Positions 56,580 to 63,815 of a stretch of DNA of 64,000 bases are shown in pieces. Below the pieces are notes generated by a model that worked only from the letters and a program-made list of their open reading frames with translations, was not told the origin of the DNA and did not search any database. Position numbers and translations under genes: made by a program. Within the stretch, counting starts at the first letter, position 1. Every line of letters starts with the position of its first letter. The DNA comes from Paracidovorax cattleyae (GTDB taxonomy: Bacteria; Pseudomonadota; Gammaproteobacteria; Burkholderiales; Burkholderiaceae_C). The stretch lies in contig NZ_FNJL01000014.1 in assembly GCF_900104515.1 (NCBI RefSeq), positions 1-64,000 of the forward strand. Reading direction: 5' to 3'.

Positions 56580-57431
56580 TCAGCGCGACCAGGCGCGCGT
56601 GGCCTGCCGCTGCTCGCCCAGGCCTTCGACGCCCAGCCGCATGGTGTCGCCCGGCTTCAGGTACACCGGCGGCTTCTGGCCGAGGCCGACGCCGGGCGGC
56701 GTGCCCGTGCTGATGATGTCGCCTGGCATGAGCGACATGAATTCGCTGATGTAGCTCACCAGCTTCGCCACCGGGAAGATCATCGTGCGCGTGCTGCCGT
56801 CCTGGTAGCGCCGGCCGTTGACTTCCAGCCACAAGCCGAGGTTCTGCGGGTCGGGCACCTCGTCCTTCGACACCAGCCAGGGACCGATGGGCGCGAAGGT
56901 GTCACAGCCCTTGCCTTTGTCCCACTGGCCTCCGCGCTCCATCTGGTATTCCCGCTCGGACACGTCGTTGACCACCGTGTAGCCCGCCACATGGTCCATC
57001 GCATCGACCTCGGCGACATACGAGGCCCTGCGACCGATCACTACGCCCAGCTCGACCTCCCAGTCGGTCTTGGTGGAGCCGCGGGGAATCACCACGGTAT
57101 CGTCCGGCCCGACGATGCACGAGCTCGGCTTCAGGAAGAGGATGGGCTCGGCCGGGATCGGCGCCCCCGTTTCCGCCGCATGGTCCGCGTAGTTGAGTCC
57201 CACGCAGACGATCTTGCCCACGCGGGCAACCGGAGGGCCGTAACGCACTGCGCCGCCCACCAGGGGCAGGCTGCCAGGGTCGAGGGCGGACAGCGAAGCC
57301 CAGGCCCCGGGCGACGCCAGCAGGTCTGCGTCCACATCGGACACGTGGCCCGACAGGCCGCGCACCCGGCCTTCGGCATCGACGATTCCGGGCTTCTCCT
57401 GGCCAGGCTGGCCGTAACGTACCAATTTCAT
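56580..57431 (-). CDS. Fumarylacetoacetate hydrolase-family protein
   Basis: A 283-residue metal-dependent C-C hydrolase or hydratase (FAH superfamily). It has MKLVRYGQPGQEKPGIVD, GLNYADHAAETG, the metal ligands in DWEVELGVVIG and NDVSEREYQ, and STGTPPGVG. GGAG lies eight bases before the ATG. Members with this N-terminus act late in sugar-acid breakdown (2,4-diketo-3-deoxyacid hydrolases), usually beside an SDR dehydrogenase; here only an SDR remnant lies upstream. Convergent with ftsY. Confidence 0.88.
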   Translation of the reverse strand: MKLVRYGQPGQEKPGIVDAEGRVRGLSGHVSDVDADLLASPGAWASLSALDPGSLPLVGGAVRYGPPVARVGKIVCVGLNYADHAAETGAPIPAEPILFLKPSSCIVGPDDTVVIPRGSTKTDWEVELGVVIGRRASYVAEVDAMDHVAGYTVVNDVSEREYQMERGGQWDKGKGCDTFAPIGPWLVSKDEVPDPQNLGLWLEVNGRRYQDGSTRTMIFPVAKLVSYISEFMSLMPGDIISTGTPPGVGLGQKPPVYLKPGDTMRLGVEGLGEQRQATRAWSR

Positions 57432-57560: not shown

Positions 57561-57745
57561 ACCCGGTCCATTACCGAAACCATCTTTTGTTAATACAAAA
57601 GTTTCATAAAAATAAACGAATAACTCATAAAAAATAAATTTATTTAACCCATAAACCAGACTCTCCCACGCCGCCCTTCAGAGAGCGTTTTATCCAGCCG
57701 GGACACTCAATAATCCGGCCTTGAAACCAACAAGGAGGAGAACCC
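57561..57745 (+). promoter_or_regulatory. AT-rich promoter region of the BKACE-like operon
   Basis: About 185 bases, strikingly AT-rich in the middle, without a gene. It contains TTTTGT-TAAT-ACAAAA (57585-57600), the perfect 14-base palindrome AAATAAATTTATTT (57632-57645) and, at the end, AAGGAGGAG just before the GTG start. TTGT-N4-ACAA dyads occur at operators of GntR-type and related regulators. I see several possible -10 boxes but no clear -35 pair. Low GC here in a GC-rich genome fits H-NS-type silencing or a foreign promoter. Confidence 0.5.
57585..57600. promoter_or_regulatory. Inverted repeat TTTTGT-N4-ACAAAA
   Basis: Six-base arms with a TAAT spacer, 146 bases upstream of the GTG start of the BKACE-like gene. 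Size and symmetry suit a dimeric repressor or activator. The regulator is not obvious in the window. Confidence 0.45.
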
Positions 57746-60700
57746 GTGCAGGAGATATTCATTACCGCGGCGCCGGTGGGCGCAGTGCCGCGCAACATCG
57801 AGCCGCTGGGCCCGAAATACCTTTCCGCGGCGCTGTCACGGCACATTGCCGGGTTGGATGCGGCACTCGAGAAAGGCCATGGCTGGGAGCCCGTGGCCGA
57901 GGGTGGGTTGCTGGCCAGCGAATCGACCCGGATTCCCGCCGGGGCGGATTTCATCTGCTCCCTGGCGCCCACCGCGGACGTGCTGGATCGCTGGCTCCGG
58001 GAGACGGGTCTGCACGCACAGGACGGCGTCTTCCAATACCACCAGCCGGACGCCCCGGTGGCGCGGCACCTGGATGCCGCCTGTTTTGCCAGGATCGCCT
58101 CCCGGCAAACTGCGGCGGAACTGGTGGTGCACCTGACAGGCCAGGGCTGGACCGGCGATGGCGCCGGGGGCCTCGCATGGCGGCATGCCGGAGCGGTGGA
58201 GTCGTACATACCGCCGGAGCTCGTGGAGCGGCTCCATGCCTGCGGCCCCGGAGTGGTGGAAGGGCTTGCCGCCGCCGGCTGGTGCAGGGCCGGCTCGGGC
58301 CATGCGCTTTCCGGCAAGGGCGCGTCCTGCTGGCTGCCGATCGCACCCTCCGCCATCGTGGACGAGTGCGTGGCCGCGGTGCGGGAAGGGGCCGCCATCC
58401 TCCACCTGCACACCCGCGACCACGTCGGGCAGGCATGGCGCCTGCCCTGGCTGCCCATGTCCCTGGTTACCGGCCCGCAGCCCAACCGGATCGTGCCGGA
58501 CGACTACGACGCCATCGTGCCGCGCCTGCGGGCCGAAGTGCCGCTGGCCATCCTCAACCTCTCCACCAGCGTGCGGGGCGGCGGCGATGCCGAAGGCGCC
58601 GCCCGCCGCGAGCACCTCAAGCCTTATGCGCCGGACGGCACGCCCCCCGAGCTGTCCTCGCTGAGTCCGGGCGAAGTGCTGTTCCAGTCCGGCGGCGGAT
58701 ATCACAATACCCCGGCCTTCCTACAGCAGCAACTCGCGCATGCGCGCAGATACGGCATCCGCCCCGAGATCGAGGTCTTCAACCGCACCATCCTGCAGGA
58801 GGCGCTGGGCCCGTTCAGGCCCTGGCTGGAAGAGGCAGGCGCCCCGTGCCTGCTCATGCTGGTGGCAGGCGTGGACCAGCACCGCCGCGCCGGGGATGCC
58901 CTGGAGGACGATTCGCTCATCCCGGCTGCGCAGCGGCAGGCGATCTATGCGTCGCTGCAGGCGGGGGATGCCGCCGGCATCGACCGCGCCCTGGACATGG
59001 CCGTGGCGGCGCTCGAGCCCTCCGTGGCGGCGATCCGCCAACAGCTCCCCGGTTCACGCATCTCGGTGCTGATGCCGGGGCCGATGCAGCAGTTGCTGCC
59101 CCGGCTGGCGGTGCGGCTCCGGCTCGACGGCGTGCGCATCGGGCTGGAGGACGGTCTCACGGTACCGGACCGGAGCGTGCCGGGCGGCATGCGCAAGGGA
59201 AGGACCGCGGAGCAGGTCCGCTGGCTGCGCGAGGAACTGCAGGCGCTCGGCTGCCACGTGCTCTCCGCCGAGGCGACCCGCCGCTTGCTGCAGATGCCCG
59301 CCGCGGCCCATGCCCTGTTCCTGGCGGCCATGGATGCCACGTCGCACCTCGCCACTCCGCAATGCCCGCCCTCCGCCAGTCCGATGGCCGCCGTGATCGG
59401 AGCCCTCTCACACCTGCGTCCGGCCTTCGACCGCCGCGAGCAGTGGCTGCGCGGGCAACTCGTGCGCCACAGCCACAGCCACGGCGACAGCGCCAGGGCG
59501 GCCGCCATCGCCCGCGACCTGATCCGCCAGGCCGGCCTGTACGTGCGCTGCTTCATCGAGGAGCGGGACCGCTATCCTGCGCAGGGTGCGAGCGCCTTCC
59601 GCCCCATCCACGACATACAGCCCCTCAACCATGCATGGGAACTGCTGCTGGAAAACGGGCAGGATGCCACTTTCTACCAGCAGGCGCTGGAAGGGCTGGC
59701 GTCCGGGGCGGGCGTGGCACCGGACGGCTTCCTGACACGGCCGTCCCAACGCAAGGGCCCGGACCTACGCTTCCTCGAATACCTCGCGTCGCTTTCCTGC
59801 CGGTTCAGCGCCGACCGCCAGCACGTGGAGAACCTGGACCTGCGCCTGCAGCCCGGCTACGCGGCGTTCCAGGCCACCCTGTTCCAGGCCGTCGAGGAGG
59901 CGTACCGGCGCATGCGTGCCGGCAGCGAAGCCGAACCCAAGCATCCAGGCATCCTCGCATTCGACGCCGGCACGGGCGACACCGTGGATCCGGCGGACCT
60001 GCGCCAAGCGGTCCGCGACAGCCACTGGATCATGCTGCCCAGCACGCCGACGACCCACTACGCGGAAGGGCTGCAGCTGTCGCGGGGGCTGTCCACGACC
60101 TTCCTGTCGCACCTGCGCCGCATGCTCCCGCGCCAGGCCGATGGGCTTCGCATCCTCGGCTTCGTGCATGCGGGGCTGGACGGCGAGGGCCACCCCCTGA
60201 TCGAGGCCAGCATGCTCCACAACCGCTTCCTGCTGGGAACCGACCGGGAGGGCAGTCTCGTCGGCCACCCATCGCGCCTGCTGTATGAAGCACTGCTGCT
60301 GCCCCGGTTGGTGGAGCACCCCGCAAGGCTGCTGCGAAACGCGGACGGCACGGTGGAGCGGGAAGGCGGCATGCCCCTGTATGAAGACCGCAGCCCCGCA
60401 CGCCGCATCGACTTCCGGTCCATCGAGGACATACCGCCCCTGCGCTTCCTGGCGCACAGCTCGGGTATCGCGACCATGCAGCAGATGGACAACGCCATGC
60501 GCCACGACATGGAACGGCTGGGCTATTCACTGCTGGAGCAGACCGAGCTGTTCAACCGCAATGTCGTGGTGTCGTTCGCATCGGCCGCGGACATCGCTTC
60601 CGGCACCCCCGGCACGCCCACGGTGGACGTGACGGCCTACAACGACATCCGCAGCATGGCGGGGACGACCACCCCCGACTATGCGATACCGGATGCGCAC

Positions 60701-61000
60701 CGCCGCCGCCAGGCGCTCTCCGCCCGCGATGCGAACCATCGCTATGAAGACACGCAGTGGAAGCTGATCCGTGGCGCTTCCGGCAAGGTCGTGTTGAGGC
60801 GCATCGGCGTTTTCCTGCGCGAAGACCCGGCCCGCCAGCACGATAGCCATTCGATTCGCCGCTACCTGGAAGGCGCGCCGGAGGCCGTCAGGCACCTGCT
60901 GGAGCAGTTGCACACGATGTCCGGCGCACCACGCTTCGATTTCACGCTACGGCGCCTGGCCTCGGCGGATGCACAGCCGGAACCGGAGCTGCAGCCGTGA
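57746..61000 (+). CDS. Large BKACE-like fusion protein
   Basis: A 1084-residue cytoplasmic protein. BKACE (PF05853) enzymes cleave beta-keto acids with acetyl-CoA using zinc. The start EIFITAAPVGAVPRN (3-17) matches their first strand; after a roughly 170-residue insertion comes PSAIVDECVAAVREGAAILHLHTRD, with the zinc pair His220/His222; then NLSTS (271-275), PPELSSLSPGE (300-310), PEIEVFNRTIL (340-350) and RIGLEDGL (464-471). Residues 555-1084 form one or more unrecognised domains. The GTG has AAGGAGGAG just upstream. First gene of a three-gene operon; the next ATG overlaps its stop. Cleavage activity is inferred; the substrate is unknown. Confidence 0.7.
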   Translation: MQEIFITAAPVGAVPRNIEPLGPKYLSAALSRHIAGLDAALEKGHGWEPVAEGGLLASESTRIPAGADFICSLAPTADVLDRWLRETGLHAQDGVFQYHQPDAPVARHLDAACFARIASRQTAAELVVHLTGQGWTGDGAGGLAWRHAGAVESYIPPELVERLHACGPGVVEGLAAAGWCRAGSGHALSGKGASCWLPIAPSAIVDECVAAVREGAAILHLHTRDHVGQAWRLPWLPMSLVTGPQPNRIVPDDYDAIVPRLRAEVPLAILNLSTSVRGGGDAEGAARREHLKPYAPDGTPPELSSLSPGEVLFQSGGGYHNTPAFLQQQLAHARRYGIRPEIEVFNRTILQEALGPFRPWLEEAGAPCLLMLVAGVDQHRRAGDALEDDSLIPAAQRQAIYASLQAGDAAGIDRALDMAVAALEPSVAAIRQQLPGSRISVLMPGPMQQLLPRLAVRLRLDGVRIGLEDGLTVPDRSVPGGMRKGRTAEQVRWLREELQALGCHVLSAEATRRLLQMPAAAHALFLAAMDATSHLATPQCPPSASPMAAVIGALSHLRPAFDRREQWLRGQLVRHSHSHGDSARAAAIARDLIRQAGLYVRCFIEERDRYPAQGASAFRPIHDIQPLNHAWELLLENGQDATFYQQALEGLASGAGVAPDGFLTRPSQRKGPDLRFLEYLASLSCRFSADRQHVENLDLRLQPGYAAFQATLFQAVEEAYRRMRAGSEAEPKHPGILAFDAGTGDTVDPADLRQAVRDSHWIMLPSTPTTHYAEGLQLSRGLSTTFLSHLRRMLPRQADGLRILGFVHAGLDGEGHPLIEASMLHNRFLLGTDREGSLVGHPSRLLYEALLLPRLVEHPARLLRNADGTVEREGGMPLYEDRSPARRIDFRSIEDIPPLRFLAHSSGIATMQQMDNAMRHDMERLGYSLLEQTELFNRNVVVSFASAADIASGTPGTPTVDVTAYNDIRSMAGTTTPDYAIPDAHRRRQALSARDANHRYEDTQWKLIRGASGKVVLRRIGVFLREDPARQHDSHSIRRYLEGAPEAVRHLLEQLHTMSGAPRFDFTLRRLASADAQPEPELQP

Positions 61001-62433
61001 TGCGCATCGCCATCATCGGCGCCGGCTGCAGCGGCACCCTGGTGTGCCGCAGCCTGGTGCCGGAGGCACGCAAGGGCCGGGTGGCTGCGGTCACCCTCTT
61101 CGACGCCTCGGGAGACTTCGGCCCCGGCCTGCCTTACGGCAGCGGCACCACGGCCGACAGCTTCCTGCTCAACATGACGGCATCGACCCTCGGCATCGGC
61201 GAGCCACCGGACGATTTCCTCGACTGGCTCACCAGCCAGGGTCAGACCGGCGGCTACGTTCCCCGGCGGATGTTCGGCCAGTACCTCCGCACCGCGCTGG
61301 CCAACACCGTACGCGACCTGGCCGACGCCGCGGTGGATGTGCGCCGGGTGCACGGCGCAGTGACCGACATCCGGAAAACAGCCGGAGGCTACACCGTGGA
61401 GTCGCCGGCAGGCGGCATGGTGTTCGACCGGGTGGTGCTCGCGATCGGGCACCTGCGCAAGATCTCCCCGTTCGGTCTGAACGAACGCTATTTCGCCAAC
61501 CCCTACCACGCGCTGGCCGGCATCGCCCACGCCATTGCGGAGGACGCATCGGTGGGCATCATCGGCAGCAAGCTCACCGCCATCGACATGGCCCTGTACC
61601 TGCGGGACCAAGGCATCCGGAGCATCCACATGCTCTCGCATTCAGGACGCCTCCCGCTCGTGCGCGGCGTGATGCCCGATGGGGGGGATTTCCGGACGGA
61701 CCTGCCCCTGCAGCCTCGGGCCAGCGTGCGCCGCTTCCTGCGCCACTTTGCCGCATCGCGGCCCTTTGCCGCGGAATACCCGGGCTTCTTCACCCTCAGC
61801 GATCCCCGGTTGCGGCTGGACCTGGAGATCGAGGCGGCCCGGCAGGTCCGGCCGTGGCAGCTCTACCTGGATGGCACGAAACATGCCATCGACAGCTACT
61901 GGCAAGCCATGGATGCGCAGCAGAAGCGGCTATTCCAGCGCAAGTACCGGGGCCTGTGGATGAGTTGCCGCCATCCCATGCCCCTGGACAATGCGCTCAG
62001 GATCCGCCAGATGCTGGACGAAGGCAGCCTTTTCATCCACCGGGGCTACCGGTCCATGACCCGGCAACGCGAAGGCTTCTCCGCGCAGCTTCCCACGACC
62101 AGCCTGCCCCTGGACTACGTCATCGACGCGACCGGGGTGTCCGGCAACATCGGCCACATCGACGATCCACTCGTCGCGCGCCTCATCGACAACGGCCTTC
62201 TGGCCCAGCACCCTGCCGGCGGCATCCGGATGGAGCCGGACTCCCTGCGGGTCGCGGGCGAACCGGGACTGTTCGCCATCGGCCCCCTGACCCAGGGCAC
62301 CCGGTTCTACGTCTCCGCCGTCGAGAGGCTCAAGGTGCATGCAAGCGCACTGACCAACGCGATGGTGCAGTCCATGCACGCGGCACCTTCGCAGGGCCGC
62401 CATGCTCTCCGCTCCACCCCTTCGTCCTGCTGA
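61000..62433 (+). CDS. FAD/NAD(P)-binding oxidoreductase (PF13454-like)
   Basis: A 477-residue flavoprotein candidate. The N-terminal dinucleotide motif is IIGAGCSGT (5-13), followed by GDFGPGLPYGSGTTADSFLLN, a pattern of the FAD_NAD_binding family; a second nucleotide fold appears at VGIIGSKLTAIDMAL (about 186-200) and the C-terminal DATGVSGNIG. Its ATG overlaps the TGA of the BKACE-like gene in TGATG, so translation is coupled. GGAG is 11 bases upstream. It probably oxidises a small molecule made or used by the first protein; no signal peptide. Confidence 0.8.
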   Translation: MRIAIIGAGCSGTLVCRSLVPEARKGRVAAVTLFDASGDFGPGLPYGSGTTADSFLLNMTASTLGIGEPPDDFLDWLTSQGQTGGYVPRRMFGQYLRTALANTVRDLADAAVDVRRVHGAVTDIRKTAGGYTVESPAGGMVFDRVVLAIGHLRKISPFGLNERYFANPYHALAGIAHAIAEDASVGIIGSKLTAIDMALYLRDQGIRSIHMLSHSGRLPLVRGVMPDGGDFRTDLPLQPRASVRRFLRHFAASRPFAAEYPGFFTLSDPRLRLDLEIEAARQVRPWQLYLDGTKHAIDSYWQAMDAQQKRLFQRKYRGLWMSCRHPMPLDNALRIRQMLDEGSLFIHRGYRSMTRQREGFSAQLPTTSLPLDYVIDATGVSGNIGHIDDPLVARLIDNGLLAQHPAGGIRMEPDSLRVAGEPGLFAIGPLTQGTRFYVSAVERLKVHASALTNAMVQSMHAAPSQGRHALRSTPSSC

Positions 62434-62442
62434 ATCTCCACC

Positions 62443-63180
62443 ATGGATACCACCACCGCCATCGTTGTTCTCGGCGCCGTCGCCGGCGGATTCGTGCAGG
62501 GCCTGTCCGGCTTCGCCTTCGGCCTGACCGCCATGTCCTTCTGGGCCTGGGCGGTCGATCCCCGCCTGGCAGCCTCGCTGGCCGTGTTCGGTGCACTCAC
62601 GGGGCAGGTCATCGCGGCATTTTCCGTCCGGCGGGGTGCACACCTGTCCTCCCTCTGGCCCTTCGTGGCGGGCGGAATGGCGGGCATTCCCCTCGGCGTC
62701 GCCGTGCTGCCCTACCTGGATGTCCGCCTCTTCAAGCTGGTACTGGGCACGCTGCTGGTGCTGTGGTGCCCGGCCATGCTGTGGGCCAGGGACCTTCCGG
62801 CCGTCACCTGGGGAGGCCGCCTCGCGGACGGGCTGGTCGGCACGCTCGGCGGCGTGCTGGGCGGCATCGGCGGGTTCACGGGCACGGCGCCCACGCTCTG
62901 GTGCACGCTCAAGCGCTGGGACAAGGATCGGCAACGCGCCGTGATCCAGAACTTCAACCTGTCCACCCTGGCCGTCACGATGGGCATCTACGTGTTCAGC
63001 GGCGTCGTCACCCGCGACGCCCTGCCGCTCTTCGCGCTCGTGGCCCCGGCCATGCTGGTGCCGACCCTGCTCGGCTCACGGGTCTATACCGGAATCTCGG
63101 ACGCCACTTTCCGCAAGGTGGTCCTGAGCCTCCTGACCCTGTCCGGCATCGCCCTGGTCGCTTCGGGCCTCCGGGGCTGA
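62443..63180 (+). CDS. TauE/SafE-family membrane permease
   Basis: A 245-residue inner membrane protein with seven or eight helices, split into two similar halves: GFVQGLSGFAFGLTAMSFW near residue 15-33 and GGVLGGIGGFTGTAPTLW near 137-154, the paired motif of TauE/SafE exporters of sulfonates, sulfite and organic acids. It starts nine bases after the flavoprotein stop. As third gene of the operon it is the natural exporter or importer of the pathway's substrate or product. Confidence 0.85.
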   Translation: MDTTTAIVVLGAVAGGFVQGLSGFAFGLTAMSFWAWAVDPRLAASLAVFGALTGQVIAAFSVRRGAHLSSLWPFVAGGMAGIPLGVAVLPYLDVRLFKLVLGTLLVLWCPAMLWARDLPAVTWGGRLADGLVGTLGGVLGGIGGFTGTAPTLWCTLKRWDKDRQRAVIQNFNLSTLAVTMGIYVFSGVVTRDALPLFALVAPAMLVPTLLGSRVYTGISDATFRKVVLSLLTLSGIALVASGLRG

Positions 63181-63317: not shown

Positions 63318-63815
63318 ATGCCCACGACGACAAACCAGCGCACCCCCGCCGATGCCTGCAGCCTCCTGGACGCAGACCATCGCAAGGTGAAGAAGATGTT
63401 CAAGGAGTATGAAGAACTGGCCGGCTCCAAGTCCAAGACGTCCATCGCCAAGAAGCGCGACCTGGCACAGCAGATCTGCCTGGAGCTGACCGTGCATGCG
63501 CAGATCGAGGAGGAAATCTTCTATCCGGCCCTGCGGGAAGCGCTTCGCGAAACCGACCTGCTGGACGAAGCCGAGGTCGAGCACGCCAGCGCCAAGGACC
63601 TGATCGCCCAGATCCAGACCGGCGATGCCATGGACGACAAGTTCGATGCCAAGGTGACCGTGCTGGGCGAATACATCGACCACCACGTCAAGGAAGAGCG
63701 CAATGAAATCTTCGTCAAGGCCCGCGCGGCCCGCAAGCTCGACCTGGTAGCCATGCGCGACACGCTGCAGGCCCGCAAGGAGGAACTGATGGAGGAGATG
63801 CAGGCCATGGCCTGA
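63318..63815 (+). CDS. Hemerythrin HHE-domain protein
   Basis: A 165-residue helical protein with the di-iron ligands of hemerythrin-like HHE proteins: DADHRKVKKMF, HAQIEEEIFYPALRE, EVEHASAKDLI and DHHVKEERNEIF. Such proteins bind O2, NO or iron and often respond to oxidative or nitrosative stress. GAGGA eight bases before the ATG sets the start. It has a separate 137-base upstream space and is followed by a strong terminator, so it is a transcription unit of its own. Confidence 0.92.
   Translation: MPTTTNQRTPADACSLLDADHRKVKKMFKEYEELAGSKSKTSIAKKRDLAQQICLELTVHAQIEEEIFYPALREALRETDLLDEAEVEHASAKDLIAQIQTGDAMDDKFDAKVTVLGEYIDHHVKEERNEIFVKARAARKLDLVAMRDTLQARKEELMEEMQAMA

Follow-up and report, generated by a model that had tools for sequence, protein, structure and literature searches.

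A probable Obc1-type operon for oxalate synthesis, with a candidate exporter, in Paracidovorax cattleyae

The first 64,000 nucleotides of contig NZ_FNJL01000014.1 of Paracidovorax cattleyae (the window) carry three plus-strand genes, back to back, which we read with some reserve as an Obc1-type operon for oxalate synthesis and export. Domain content and structural matches strongly indicate that the first gene encodes a complete Obc1, the oxalate synthase described from Burkholderia as the product of one gene; it is followed by the genes of a PF13454 flavoprotein and of a TauE/SafE-family membrane protein (Table 1). An earlier note on this DNA had described the run, and its account of the layout was confirmed: a TGATG overlap (60998–61002) of the obc1 stop with the flavoprotein start, a nine-base gap (62434–62442) between flavoprotein and TauE genes, and a ribosome site on the first gene. 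Pfam profile searches also bore out its family guesses (BKACE, FAD-NAD(P)-binding PF13454 and TauE PF01925), and families and linkage support its picture of a small-molecule unit that combines a beta-keto-acid-type enzyme with an oxidoreductase and a probable exporter. Its view that gene 1 is a BKACE giant, uncharacterised and outside any known pathway, is not supported, since Obc1 has solved structures (5iky, 5ikz) and a measured reaction (PMC5028181). The Obc1, PF13454 and TauE/SafE families are all already known; for the trio itself, or for an obc1-linked oxalate exporter, no description was found among the matches listed from the open-licence literature, in titles and the starts of abstracts.

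The window Obc1 matches four Pfam models, all above their curated cut-offs (PF20913, E = 4.7e-10; PF05853, E = 3.1e-26; PF21502, E = 1.8e-21; PF21498, E = 2.2e-130). The domains follow one another in a single chain as ObcA_N, BKACE, Obc1_cap and Obc1_C, of which the earlier note had recognized the BKACE part and missed the other three. The solved structure that it matches best is 5iky/5ikz (Oxalate biosynthetic component 1; E = 8.8e-202 over residues 2–1072), and the next is ObcA (4nna, E = 2.3e-108), which aligns with the N-terminal half. The active-site set of Obc1, comprising the metal-binding HxH and Glu together with the catalytic Tyr of ObcA, is present, and residues H220, H222, Y319 and E468 are invariant across the 18 Obc1 rows compared; the metal-binding roles of the His and Glu residues are transferred by motif from a BKACE-family structure (PMC12871164). 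Y319 corresponds to position 324 in the 4nna chain of 542 residues and, since ObcA is 540 amino acids long (PMC5028181), should equal ObcA Tyr322, whose mutation is reported to abolish activity (PMC12871164). Domains, active-site residues and end-to-end alignment are thus those of Burkholderia Obc1, with 39–41% identity to two Burkholderia rows. The Burkholderia mallei enzyme converts oxaloacetate and acetyl-CoA to oxalate, acetoacetate and CoA (PMC5028181), and by this likeness the window protein very probably makes oxalate.

The ObcA/ObcB system of Burkholderia glumae is encoded by two genes, the second gamma-carbonic-anhydrase-like (PMC12918730), whereas the window has one gene; no ObcB-like relative lies near the full obc1 loci compared, nor (E ≤ 1e-6) near the ObcA genes of L032, L034 and L035, from two Chromobacterium and one Pseudomonas. 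Ordinary BKACE enzymes (PF05853, formerly DUF849; Kce) have the TIM-barrel part and the HxH motif in common with the window Obc1, which adds ∼190 amino acids before and ∼550 after that part. A role as a lysine-fermentation or other ordinary BKACE enzyme was rejected, as the four NCBIfam models touched score 16–49 bits against cut-offs of 350–725.

The second protein matches PF13454 with E = 4.5e-27 (95.4 bits against a gathering score of 21.8), and its gene travels with obc1. In whole-genome searches, full-length relatives of at least 41% identity were found in half of the 20 genomes with Obc1 (a set that includes G016, whose obc1 is interrupted) versus none of 14 without full Obc1 (eight congeners, including G009, and six ObcA-type genomes). 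The best relatives in those 14 were 31–34% identical, in two Chromobacterium, with short pieces of 37–38% in two Burkholderia. Within the genus the flavoprotein accompanies obc1 in 6 of 9 genomes and occurs in none of the 8 that lack a full obc1; Fisher p values for the association (0.009 within the genus, 0.0017 overall) are optimistic because the rows are related. Ten genomes, spread over several genera, carry the pair with a transporter gene close by, more often than chance would give, and in a gammaproteobacterial metagenome-assembled genome (MAG) the two proteins are fused in a single open reading frame of 1603 amino acids, with all five domains above cut-off. In G861 the two genes overlap by 4 bases, provided that translation begins at the listed GTG. 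Co-inheritance and the fusion make it likely that the flavoprotein acts on a compound that Obc1 either uses or makes.

Among proteins of known structure, flavin-containing monooxygenases come closest (7d4k, E = 4e-6), by a weak profile match to the FAD/NAD(P) part that covers positions 2–216. Of two motifs of class B flavin monooxygenases, the FAD motif GxGxxG is found at residue 8, whereas the fingerprint FxGxxxHxxx[YFW] has no match in the sequence. Between the two nucleotide-binding stretches lies an NPYH motif that is invariant in the nine rows aligned. Among distant PF13454 relatives, the gene neighbours in three plasmid contexts, from 522 matched records, have no shared theme, and no flavoprotein relative was confirmed in viral contigs. 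At L018 (9685–10968) an amidohydrolase-family gene lies on the same strand ∼70 bases past the flavoprotein gene, and likewise at L025 and L026.

The third protein matches PF01925 over residues 9–238 of 245 (E = 2e-29), that is, the TauE/SafE anion transporter family over its full length, and hydrophobic stretches in its sequence point to several membrane helices; no solved structure matched its profile at E ≤ 1. All 10 loci with an obc1-flavoprotein pair have a transporter gene within ∼2.6 kb, encoding TauE at eight and EamA at two. TauE is downstream on the same strand at three loci (the window, P. anthurii and the MAG), upstream and divergent at four (G003, G006, G007 and G016, three of them with an intervening LysR gene), and downstream and convergent in Pseudomonas; the EamA-family gene is directly upstream of obc1 in the Robbsia and G861 loci. 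A LysR gene adjoins TauE at L017, L018, L019 and L027, and is unconfirmed at L016. TauE-family matches numbered 2–11 per genome in the nine genomes searched (E ≤ 0.001, not all above cut-off). Given about six TauE genes in some 5,000, we estimate the chance of finding one within three genes of obc1 at below 1% per locus. EamA is a larger family than TauE, so EamA adjacency alone is less telling. We consider it moderately well supported, by this linkage, that TauE exports oxalate. The genes stay together in distant genomes, a point that the earlier note had wanted checked, with obc1 and the flavoprotein held together more strictly than TauE.

In the scheme that we favour, Obc1 would catalyse the reaction measured for its B. 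mallei homolog, and the flavoprotein would act on one of the compounds involved, for which NAD(P)H-dependent oxygenation or oxidation of acetoacetate is a first guess only. TauE/SafE would then export the resulting anion, most likely oxalate, as its linkage to obc1 suggests. Exported oxalate would make the medium more acidic, an effect reported in B. glumae, and it might also bind calcium, a role put forward for that species (PMC10576180). Some Burkholderia are protected by secreted oxalate when their culture is alkaline and rich in ammonia, and such oxalate has also been tied to plant disease (PMC5028181, PMC10576180); for B. glumae the account in PMC10576180 is that no oxalic acid efflux transporter has been identified. 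The obc1-linked TauE/SafE, recurring in three arrangements, is a direct candidate for an oxalate transporter in the lineages that carry it. Co-inheritance of the flavoprotein with Obc1 suggests that, in the half of the examined Obc1 genomes that carry both, there is more to Obc1 than its described reaction.

Several observations weigh against this scheme. The known Obc1 reaction requires no flavin, and the fusion is known from one MAG. Intact obc1 in three congeners (G008, G013 and G015) is under purifying selection, with ratios of nonsynonymous to synonymous substitution (dN/dS) of 0.22–0.24 over the three pairs, and searches of these genomes gave no match to the flavoprotein or the window TauE. 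In the seven Burkholderia with full Obc1, full-length relatives of the flavoprotein do not exceed 29% identity (G465), and a short piece of 40% occurs in G492. The window TauE query found no match in these seven or in G861; such an empty result is uninformative without a genome known to match, and the same query did match 11 of 26 genomes in another search. Since obc1 is kept alone in these relatives, neither partner is needed for its retention. Close TauE homologs also occur in genomes without obc1 (G005, G010 and G012), and G003, G011 and Pseudomonas each have an additional copy, 52% identical in the case of Pseudomonas, so that the subfamily may carry other cargo. The TauE tree is mostly unresolved, and a single clade of obc1-linked TauEs is neither shown nor rejected (p-AU 0.07).

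The strongest of the alternatives is a different end product, favoured by a methyltransferase in two lineages. Here an Obc1-derived unit would be oxidized by the flavoprotein, O-methylated in some lineages and exported by TauE or EamA as a dedicated small molecule other than oxalate. Robbsia andropogonis (L029:6910–13617) and G861, of the same family (L084:5777–12387), have in common a four-gene block of EamA, obc1, flavoprotein and O-methyltransferase, with respective identities of 77, 70, 72 and 77% and with DNA homology (E ≤ 1e-5) ending at its edges; for plain oxalate synthesis a flavin enzyme or methyltransferase would be superfluous, and an EamA transporter is reported alongside another Burkholderia BKACE-family enzyme in the gene cluster of a phosphonate natural product (PMC12871164). 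We nevertheless judge this reading unlikely, given that the catalytic residues match those of oxalate enzymes, that obc1 alone is under purifying selection in three relatives, and that no relative of the methyltransferase (E ≤ 1e-6) was found in the window region or the other obc1/obcA loci compared. It is a tentative possibility that Obc1 and the flavoprotein constitute an old two-enzyme pathway, with a product that is not just oxalate and with lineage-specific export by TauE or EamA, of which the studied one-gene form in Burkholderia would be a reduced version that has lost the second enzyme.

A change of cargo alone would leave the two enzymatic steps as proposed. TauE might carry another anion, such as acetoacetate, sulfite or a sulfonate, with oxalate leaving by another route; TauE/SafE members are known for sulfur anions, and both the close homologs in genomes without obc1 and the three Obc1 congeners lacking a window-TauE match fit this idea. 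The recurrence of TauE near obc1 in three arrangements speaks against it, and we regard another cargo as possible but doubtful. Least probable, in our view improbable by a wide measure, is that the flavoprotein and TauE are accidental neighbours or hitch-hikers on a mobile block with no role in oxalate metabolism. The absence of both partners from the searched genomes of G008, G013, G015 and the seven Burkholderia speaks for it, as does the occurrence of the TauE-LysR pair away from obc1. Against it stand the matching Obc1 and flavoprotein trees, the natural fusion, the lack of a full-length flavoprotein of at least 41% identity in any of the 14 genomes without full Obc1, and the presence of a transporter near all 10 pairs despite its differing family and orientation. 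We retain oxalate synthesis and export as the best reading. The LysR-TauE pairs away from obc1 lie at L057 and L061, where TauE is ∼70% identical to that of the window.

The flavoprotein-less Burkholderia loci have neighbours of their own: an MFS gene adjoins obc1 downstream on the same strand at three of the seven (L065, L066 and L067), a convergent acetyl-CoA hydrolase/transferase gene lies beside it at two others (L063 and L064), and at L068 the contig ends shortly past obc1.

Unrooted trees of Obc1 and the flavoprotein, built from the same nine rows, have all six inner branches in common, two of them with support below 95 in one or both trees. In both, the MAG groups with Robbsia and Pseudomonas with Paracidovorax, in conflict with organismal kinship, which suggests that obc1 and the flavoprotein gene moved as a unit, although the placing is less sure because of long branches. 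On the 19-row Obc1 tree, presence of the flavoprotein requires two changes by parsimony, with the meeting of long branches as a caveat; together with the matching trees, this leads us to read its absence from Burkholderia and from G008, G013 and G015 as loss. ObcA rows used as outgroup do not all fall on a single side of the Obc1 tree, which leaves the root unsettled; that tree omits the ObcA row of B. cepacia, whose reading overran its stop. The L032 ObcA sits inside the Obc1 tree (100/99), so that ObcA and Obc1 do not separate cleanly into two clades. Between the window and P. anthurii, dN/dS is 0.30 for obc1, 0.29 for the flavoprotein and 0.07 for TauE.

Full-length obc1 has a patchy distribution. 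A search of 60 genomes found it in that of the window, in 8 of 16 congeners and in none of 43 genomes beyond the genus, two of which had short weak matches. Obc1_C scored above cut-off in 1 of 399 genomes of the order sample (the window's own), 3 of 349 of the family sample (one being the G009 remnant), 5 of 349 in the family of Robbsia, 1 of 348 Pseudomonas and 1 of 36 in the order of the MAG, samples that overlap one another. A search with the Obc1 alignment found full Obc1 in 7 of 65 Burkholderia. Scanning named genomes with a pattern turned up 13 loci, six of ObcA type and seven with full Obc1 (Paracidovorax anthurii, P. oryzae, P. valerianellae, Acidovorax sp. SUPP3334, Pseudomonas bharatica, Robbsia andropogonis and the MAG). 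A phage origin was rejected, with no match of the window Obc1 (P0001) in 50,697 phage records, as was a plasmid origin: 72,556 plasmid records gave, at E ≤ 1e-20, one match, of ObcA type, to residues 4–518, in Burkholderia stagnalis.

Two congeners carry damaged copies. In G009 (L020:8830–9015), a congener beyond the eight counted above, a remnant of 65 amino acids at 66% identity adjoins the orthologue of the window hemerythrin-family gene; obc1 has decayed there. The obc1 of G016 (L016, minus strand), one of those eight, is otherwise alignable and has an in-frame stop at codon 317, while the nearby flavoprotein and TauE genes are open; it was excluded from all Obc1 trees and from the identity table.

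Reading of the sequence upstream of obc1 (57590–57745) identified no regulator site. The operon is flanked by a fumarylacetoacetate-hydrolase-family gene and a hemerythrin-family gene (Table 1). The product of the latter has a weak likeness to the PA2171 persister family, scoring 77 bits against a cut-off of 190, and by that test is not a member.

Table 1. The three-gene operon and its flanks, in window coordinates
Feature	Position	Strand	Remarks
Fumarylacetoacetate-hydrolase-family gene	56583–57431	opposite to operon	one flank of the operon
Upstream region of obc1	57590–57745	+	AT-rich stretch; ribosome-binding site AAGGAGGAG ahead of the obc1 GTG
obc1, predicted one-gene oxalate synthase	57746–61000	+	GTG start; 1084 amino acids; ObcA_N, BKACE TIM barrel, cap and Obc1_C
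Flavoprotein (PF13454, FAD-NAD(P)-binding)	61000–62433	+	ATG start; GTG at 60997 in the list of open reading frames
TauE/SafE-family membrane protein, candidate oxalate exporter	62443–63180	+	245 amino acids; PF01925
Hemerythrin-family gene	63318–63812		other flank of the operon

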